Shown piece after piece: positions 58,223 to 60,374 of a stretch of DNA of 64,000 nt. Below the pieces are notes generated by a model. The model worked only from the letters and a program-made list of their open reading frames with translations. It had not been told where the DNA came from and did not search any database. This DNA comes from Exiguobacterium artemiae 255-15. GTDB lineage: Bacteria; Bacillota; Bacilli; Exiguobacteriales; Exiguobacteriaceae. The DNA is taken from positions 1,886,001 through 1,950,000 of the forward strand of contig NC_010556.1 in NCBI RefSeq assembly GCF_000019905.1. Direction: 5' to 3'. The position numbers and the translations under genes are program-made. Positions within the stretch are counted from its first letter, which is position 1. Each line of letters begins with the position of its first letter.

Positions 58223-59155
58223 TTAGAGAGAAACGAGTACGACCGTCACGATCCAAGCCGTGAAATAAAAGAGCGAGAAGAAAAACATCTTCGAAGCCCA
58301 CTTAATCTCAGCTTGTTCTTCCTTGATTTTGAGACCTTTCAGTCCCATGTAGAGCCAGTATCCGCCGAGCACAGCCATGACCAGCATATAAATGATGCCG
58401 TAGTGCGCAAGGAGAAGTGATGATGGGAGTAAAACTGCAATCCACCATACAATTTGTCGTTTCGTGATCGCAAAACCATTGACGACAGGTAACATTGGAA
58501 TACCGGCAGCGCGGTACTCTTCCGTCCGTCTCATGGCGAGCGCAAGGAAGTGAGGCGGTTGCCATACGAACATGATGAGAAACAAAATCCATGCATCGAT
58601 ATGAAGTGTCGGAGTGACTGCCGCAAATCCAATGATCGGTGGCACTGCTCCTGAAATACCACCTACGACTGTATTGATCGTATGTGTCCGCTTTAACCAC
58701 ATCGTATAGATGACGACGTAGACAAACGAACCAATCAATCCGAAAACTGCCGCGACATGGTTAACGATCAGCAACAGGACGGTACCGGTAGCCAGTATGC
58801 CAAGTCCTAATGCCAATATCCGTTGCCCATCCATCTTACCGGTTACACTCGGTCTTCCCATCGTCCGCTCCATCTTGTAATCAATGTCACGGTCGATATA
58901 GTTATTGAGGTAACAACTACCGGCAATGACCAGTCCACTTCCGAGAAGCGTCCACAATAATGTCAACTTCGTCTGCCACAAGTACAGTAGAACATCATCC
59001 GTTAAGTATGATGCTGCCACGACATAACCTGCGAAGACGGTGATGAGATTCGCACGAACGATTCCCATCTTTGCTAGGGTGACATAGTCCTTGAACGTCG
59101 GCTGATCCGATTGCTCGATCATGATGTCCAGGGTCTCCCCGTTTACTTTCGCCAT
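58223..59155 (-). CDS. ctaB: Protoheme IX farnesyltransferase (heme O synthase)
   Basis: CtaB converts heme B to heme O, the first step toward heme A. From the ATG at 59155 (MAKVNGETLDIMIEQSDQ), with AAGGAGG upstream, it is 310 aa. The prenyltransferase motif is NYIDRDIDYKMERTMGRPSV near residue 80, and nine membrane segments follow. It is the first gene of ctaBCDEF and is divergent from ctaA. Confidence 0.96.
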   Translation of the reverse strand: MAKVNGETLDIMIEQSDQPTFKDYVTLAKMGIVRANLITVFAGYVVAASYLTDDVLLYLWQTKLTLLWTLLGSGLVIAGSCYLNNYIDRDIDYKMERTMGRPSVTGKMDGQRILALGLGILATGTVLLLIVNHVAAVFGLIGSFVYVVIYTMWLKRTHTINTVVGGISGAVPPIIGFAAVTPTLHIDAWILFLIMFVWQPPHFLALAMRRTEEYRAAGIPMLPVVNGFAITKRQIVWWIAVLLPSSLLLAHYGIIYMLVMAVLGGYWLYMGLKGLKIKEEQAEIKWASKMFFFSLFYFTAWIVTVVLVSL

Positions 59156-59480
59156 GTTGTTTCCTCCTTCTAACCGTCCGCGTTCTTTCTGTACGTAGGA
59201 TTCACGTATTTTCTTCACAGAAATAACACAGACACGCCACGAAACGTCCTTTTCTCTATAAAAGATACCACATATTCAAGGTCATGACGTATGAAAATAC
59301 TTTCGACATAATGAACAAAATGTGAATTCTATGTGATTAACCTCACAGTTCACCATATTTACCTAATATTAGAATAGCGTTCTTCTAAAAGATTGCAAGC
59401 GTTTCGATATTTTTTATGCGATACTATTGCTAGGTATTTCAAGTATCATGTATTTTCTCTAGAAAGGTGGTGGCTGCGTT
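59156..59480. promoter_or_regulatory. Divergent control region between ctaB and ctaA
   Basis: This 325-bp gap has no gene. It contains TGTGATTAACCTCACA (59332-59347), a perfect CRP/FNR-family site of the form TGTGA-N6-TCACA, with a weaker TGTGAA (59321-59326) and TTCACC (59349-59354) around it. A cre-like element TTGCAAGCGTTTCGAT (59393-59408) matches the CcpA consensus except at two positions. I cannot assign -35/-10 elements with confidence on either strand. Confidence 0.6.
59332..59347. promoter_or_regulatory. CRP/FNR-family binding site
   Basis: TGTGA, a 6-bp spacer and TCACA form a perfect symmetric site. Bacillus Fnr and E. coli CRP recognise this pattern. It is placed between the two heme A synthesis genes. 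Confidence 0.6.
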
Positions 59481-60374
59481 TTGAATCGAAAACTTTCGAT
59501 TTTTTCAGCATTTGTCACATTCACGATGATGATCGTTCTTCTCATGGGGGGGACCGTCACGAAAACAGATTCCGGAAACGGATGCGGGACCGATTGGCCG
59601 CTCTGTCACGGAGAATTGATTCCAACTAATCCAAGTGTCGAAACGATGATTGAGTATAGTCACCGCGCAGTAACAGGAGTCGTCGGTTTATTGATCATCG
59701 CCTTGTGTCTTTGGACACTTGTCGCTTTCAAAGATCGCCTGGATATCAAGATTTTCGCTTTCCTGGCCTTCATTTTCATGTTGATTCAATCCATCGTCGG
59801 TGCAGGTGCCGTCGTTTGGCAACAGTCGGATCTCGTCATGGCACTCCATTTTGGAATCTCATTGATTTCTTTTGCTTCCTTACTTATCTTGACGATCTTG
59901 ATTATGGAGCGTTCCGGTCAAGAATTCAGGGAATCGGTCCCAGCGTTCTTGCGTAAACTGTTGTACGGCTTACTGATCTATACGTTAATCGTCGTTTACA
60001 CCGGAGCGTTCGTCCGCCATGTCGGTGCGACGTATGCCTGCGTCGGCTGGCCGGTCTGTTCGCAACCGACGATGACGTTCGAAGCGTGGGTGCAAATGAT
60101 TCACCGGATTTTGGCCGGTCTGTTGTTCTTCTATACGCTGTTCGTCCACTACACGGCGATTCGCCTGAAACACCGGACCTCGCGTACCGGTATGTTGTTC
60201 GCAACCTTCTTTATCTCTTGTCAGGTTGCAACCGGTGCCTGGATCGTTCTTGGTGGACATGCCACGTACGTTCCGTTATTACACGCATTCCTGATCACTT
60301 GTTATTTCGGAGTCATCTCTTACCTCGCTTACCATGCATTCCGGACGCGAAAAAAGGATTCTAGACTGCGCTGA
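59481..60374 (+). CDS. ctaA: Heme A synthase
   Basis: CtaA oxidises heme O to heme A. The 297-aa protein has eight membrane segments and the conserved His residues in GTDWPLCHGELIP, IEYSHRAVTGVVGLL, MALHFGISLISFASLLILT and WVQMIHRILAGLLFFYTLF. Paired cysteines (GNGCGTDWPLC and YACVGWPVC) match the Bacillus type. It starts at TTG 59481 with AAAGGTGG upstream. It is divergent from ctaBCDEF. Confidence 0.95.
   Translation: MNRKLSIFSAFVTFTMMIVLLMGGTVTKTDSGNGCGTDWPLCHGELIPTNPSVETMIEYSHRAVTGVVGLLIIALCLWTLVAFKDRLDIKIFAFLAFIFMLIQSIVGAGAVVWQQSDLVMALHFGISLISFASLLILTILIMERSGQEFRESVPAFLRKLLYGLLIYTLIVVYTGAFVRHVGATYACVGWPVCSQPTMTFEAWVQMIHRILAGLLFFYTLFVHYTAIRLKHRTSRTGMLFATFFISCQVATGAWIVLGGHATYVPLLHAFLITCYFGVISYLAYHAFRTRKKDSRLR

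Follow-up and report, generated by a model that had tools for sequence, protein, structure and literature searches.

The best understood relatives of the system described here are the Fnr proteins of B. subtilis and B. cereus, which bind TGTGA-N6-TCACA, and the FNR, FixK and Anr proteins of proteobacteria, which raise the high-affinity cbb3 oxidases. The cbb3 oxidases need no heme A, the synthesis of which requires O2. The ctaA gene of B. subtilis is controlled by ResD and is also under catabolite control, and we know of no Fnr-type site there. A CRP/FNR activator of class II has its site centred near -41.5, in place of the -35 hexamer. The Bacillus Fnr targets described in the part of PMC8139620 used here belong to nitrate respiration, with narGHJI and narK-fnr.

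The palindrome between ctaB and ctaA

In Exiguobacterium, as in B. subtilis, ctaA and ctaB are a divergent pair and resDE-like genes are encoded. The features of the locus that we need are as follows.

58223..59155, - strand: ctaB, heme O synthase, with its ATG at 59155 (TIGR01473, above cut-off)
59322..59326, + strand: TGTGA direct repeat, 11 bp upstream of the proposed site
59332..59347, + strand: proposed Fnr site TGTGATTAACCTCACA, centre at 59339.5
59481..60374, + strand: ctaA, heme A synthase, with a TTG start (PF02628)

The initial annotation placed a perfect TGTGA-N6-TCACA between ctaA and ctaB, and we confirm it at 59332-59347, together with the identity of both genes. Within the window, by which we mean the whole 64-kb stretch of DNA analysed, nothing else matches with one mismatch or none, and since the mean expected there is 2.9 the number of matches is unremarkable. 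The whole genome (3.04 Mb) has eight perfect sites against two for a backwards control pattern, but with up to one mismatch allowed the figures are 72 and 64. Weak matches as a class are thus near chance, and a motif match alone means little.

What raises the cta site above chance is its conservation. The ten arm bases are invariant at all 43 ctaA loci of the Exiguobacteriaceae, which cover two genera. The six bases between the arms do drift, and only one of those six columns is invariant among 33 distinct intergenic sequences. In the rest of the ctaB/ctaA gap 38% of columns are invariant. The 43 loci overlap in part, as one species can enter through two collections, and they represent 20 distinct sequences over the 110 bp of the promoter and the 33 distinct intergenic sequences. 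For the initial annotation a lack of conservation in relatives would have refuted the reading, and throughout this family the site is present. Outside the Exiguobacteriaceae the palindrome, with 0-1 mismatch, was found at none of the 27 ctaA loci scored (21 of 24 in one set and six from another), and there is therefore no characterised precedent at ctaA.

With regard to the flanking half-sites that had been thought to widen the symmetry, the TGTGA on the left is indeed there, on the + strand, and is kept in 14/20 distinct sequences, but as a direct repeat; it may be an accessory half-site or a ResD-type element. The TTCACC on the right (59349-59354) is kept in just 6/20. The wider symmetry itself does not stand, because the two half-sites are not symmetric about the centre of the palindrome, their own centre being at 59338.

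Promoter geometry at ctaA and at the ba3 operon

Four further elements of the gap bear on where transcription may begin.

59214..59230, - strand: ctaB leader element, TTCACAGAAATAACACA in + strand letters (also given as TTCACAGAAAWAACACA), strongly conserved in both genera
59262..59267, - strand: candidate ctaB -10, TGG-TATCTT, with AAAGATACCA conserved in both genera
59370..59375, + strand: proposed ctaA -10, TAGAAT, with a predicted start near 59382, relative to which the centre of the site is at about -42.5
59391..59405, + strand: conserved element GATTGCAAGCGTTTC (also given as GATTGCAAGCNTTTC), lying shortly after the predicted start of ctaA in both genera

The distance from the site to the -10 is 22 nt in 7/7 distinct sequences of one genus (g1) and 21 nt in 13/13 of the second (g10). 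It is thus constant within each genus, and the intervening sequence is mostly different between them. The -10 hexamer is TAGAAT in 19 of the 20 distinct sequences and TAGGAT in the other. With the transcription start as predicted, the site would be centred at -42.5 in the 22-nt genus and at -41.5 in the second, and a spacing of 21-22 nt is therefore that of a class II activator: the palindrome is present and its predicted centre is near -41.5 in 20/20 distinct sequences. A consensus promoter scan of this region gave no ordinary -35/-10 pair, its sole match being at chance level.

In the case of ctaB, a class II site on the opposite strand was considered and can be ruled out, as there is none in this genome. 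With the candidate -10 the palindrome would be centred near -84 relative to the start of ctaB, and a role for it at ctaB is an inference. The element at 59391-59405 is presumably cre-like at best, a resemblance judged by eye; in some species it is altered to GATTGCAACCCTTTC.

The same geometry occurs at a second promoter. The fnr gene is immediately followed by an operon encoding a ba3-type oxidase, of which subunit I has the Thermus ba3 oxidase (1xme/1ehk) as its best match (E ~1e-116) and subunit II carries PF00116. The site recurs, with at most one mismatch, before the ba3 operon in all 30 loci read, 22 nt from a -10. The spacing was scored by script in 27 of them, all at 22 nt (two were printed as 21 + TTAAAAT, which is 22 + TAAAAT), and by eye in the other three. 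The ba3 site of this genome has one mismatch, as do 24 of the 27 scored loci. At two of the 30 loci the site has moved to about 690 nt from fnr. In two species (L246 and L247) fnr and the ba3 promoter are separated by about 0.6 kb of additional DNA.

Candidate regulators

The initial annotation had called for a search for a CRP/FNR gene, and the genome does encode a Bacillus-type Fnr. It has two regulators with a cNMP-binding domain, one being this Fnr, with a C-x2-C-x4-C tail and a RETVNR recognition helix, and the other a YeiL-like protein. An Fnr ortholog is present in 38/38 Exiguobacteriaceae genomes, and tail and helix are both kept in the 30/30 orthologs read. In the part of PMC3520743 used here C-x2-C-x4-C provides the cluster ligands of B. 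subtilis and B. cereus Fnr. An Asp that does not vary lies in K-L/V-R-D-L and may correspond to the fourth ligand, Asp141, of B. subtilis. By residue count, however, it is 93 positions ahead of the last Cys where Asp141 is 94, and this offset is a point against the Fnr reading. A second Fnr-like protein, 34-35% identical and aligning through the Cys tail, is found in 7/19 genomes of the second genus (G031-G035, G039 and G041).

We think it probable, on the basis of sequence, that the palindrome is an Fnr site and that Fnr, active at low O2, is a class II activator of ctaA together with the ba3 operon. At low oxygen the C-terminal Fe-S cluster would be intact, and the Fnr dimer would bind the palindrome at about -42 and recruit RNA polymerase to the TAGAAT promoter, so that ctaA is transcribed. 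Fnr would also work the adjoining ba3 operon through its identically built promoter, and under micro-oxic conditions the ba3-type oxidase and heme A, presumably its requirement, would rise together because both promoters are built alike for Fnr. The one layout at ctaA and the ba3 operon thus suggests joint induction of oxidase and cofactor when oxygen is low. As heme A synthesis needs O2, activation of ctaA by an anaerobic regulator would be sensible only in the micro-oxic range.

The CRP/FNR-type reading of the initial annotation is thus the best one, with the site conserved and fnr encoded, but the suggested link to carbon supply is unsupported. A cAMP-CRP can be set aside, since the only cNMP-domain regulators encoded are the Cys-tail Fnr and the YeiL-like protein, and the latter has a different helix, without RE..R.

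The alternative that has to be taken most seriously is that the palindrome is an operator for Rex, the NADH/NAD+-responsive repressor, with ctaA, and perhaps ctaB, blocked until NADH rises. Rex is encoded in 13/13 Exiguobacterium genomes, the copy in this genome scoring above the NCBIfam cut-offs, and in the part of PMC2883068 used here the Rex consensus, TTGTGAAW4TTCACAA, contains TGTGA-N6-TCACA; overlap of ArcR and Rex on the shared core motif is recorded there also. Sites of the same core motif occur in this genome at adhE (two), ldh (two), cydA, nox and rex (L022, L134, L148/L251, L026 and L161), adhE having been named by eye from sequence, and these are probable Rex sites. However, the search rule of that source allows at most 3 mismatches and the cta site has five. 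It matches the Rex 18-mer at 13/18 positions, against 16 for cydA and 15 for adhE-2, ldh-1 and nox, but the site of rex itself does no better, at 13, and the limit of three may accordingly be set too low for this genome. With cta at 13/18 and the Rex-type sites at 13-16, sequence alone does not settle between Fnr and Rex. The outer T/A positions of the Rex consensus are kept at cta in neither genus, and if the protein were a repressor, the constant 21-22 nt to the -10 in two promoters would have no explanation. No Rex-type site (adhE, ldh, cydA, nox or rex) has a -10 at that distance, and the geometry therefore favours Fnr. We regard control by Rex as unlikely. It is less probable still that both regulators use the one site, Fnr activating as O2 falls and Rex competing while NAD+ is high: the core motif is common to the two and both proteins are encoded, but there is no positive evidence for such dual use and the match to Rex is weak.

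In B. subtilis fashion, ResD could be the main control with the palindrome a minor element. A full resABCDE-like gene row is encoded (resB by PF05140, the rest from ORFs by eye), and the TGTGA direct repeat is a possible element for it, but the repeat is less conserved than the palindrome, and ResD would leave the invariant palindrome and its -10 spacing unexplained. We consider this very improbable. The reading that we prefer remains activation by Fnr.

The layout in other Bacilli and its meaning

The pattern TGTGA-N6-TCACA-N21/22-TANAAT is present in 101 of 250 Bacilli genomes and its backwards control in one; the 250 take in 22 Exiguobacteriaceae, 21 of them with the pattern. Thirty matches from outside the family were opened and the downstream proteins scanned at 20 of the 30. 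The 20 include hcp-type proteins (3), nirB-type reductases (2), moeA, flavohemoglobin (hmp), a Crp-family regulator, ba3 subunit II, cytochrome c, chemotaxis proteins and others, and four of the 20 have no Pfam match. The genes concerned fit an Fnr regulon in part: those of hcp, nirB, moeA, hmp and Crp-family type are such as Fnr would be expected to control, and those for chemotaxis and DGC proteins are neutral.

In the genome under study four of the 64 sites examined with 0-1 mismatch have, on one strand or the other, a loosely matching -10 at a distance of 21-22 nt: cta, ba3, one that is intragenic and one that is intergenic and, on the side of its -10, has no listed ORF in the nearest 450 bp. 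The 64 are sites of distinct context out of the 72 in the genome, two others having been dropped as identical contexts. A family-wide search gave many one-mismatch matches at other genes, and these count against the Fnr reading.

In a different family of Bacilli, one locus (L285, 1279-1294) has a class II site flanked on one side by a gene judged by eye from its sequence to be CtaB-like and on the other by a ba3 operon with an SCO1-like gene. A similar circuit may have evolved independently there.

The Exiguobacterium protein resembles the Fnr of B. subtilis and B. cereus in its C-x2-C-x4-C tail, its CRP-fold domains, its proposed TGTGA-N6-TCACA site and its proposed low-O2 logic. It differs from Bacillus Fnr in that its clear class II promoters, as predicted, are those of ctaA and the ba3 oxidase, and in that fnr stands beside an oxidase operon. 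The proposed induction of a micro-oxic terminal oxidase by a CRP/FNR protein that responds to O2 has its parallel in proteobacterial FNR, FixK and Anr, although there the oxidase is of cbb3 type, whereas Exiguobacterium has ba3 plus a heme A gene. With Gram-positive Rex operators, as they appear in the part of PMC2883068 used here, the cta site shares the core palindrome that the classic Rex genes of this genome also carry, but Rex represses, and at cta the outer bases and the geometry are different.

The regulator is known in kind and the target is new, an Fnr-type ctaA promoter with a twin at ba3 being the best reading of the sequences. A search of open-access literature by titles and the beginnings of abstracts, which did not cover subscription journals, gave no report of Fnr wiring of ctaA or ba3. 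It is possible, and we put it forward tentatively, that Fnr in the Exiguobacteriaceae has been rewired from nitrate respiration to a small micro-oxic regulon comprising the ba3 oxidase and the O2-dependent step in synthesis of its cofactor, heme A. Fnr and Rex sites, which have one motif in common, might in practice be told apart by looking for a -10 hexamer 21-22 nt downstream, which would indicate Fnr. If the proposal is correct, this is a Gram-positive Fnr that pairs an oxidase with its cofactor and so governs the breathing of scarce oxygen, not life in its absence.
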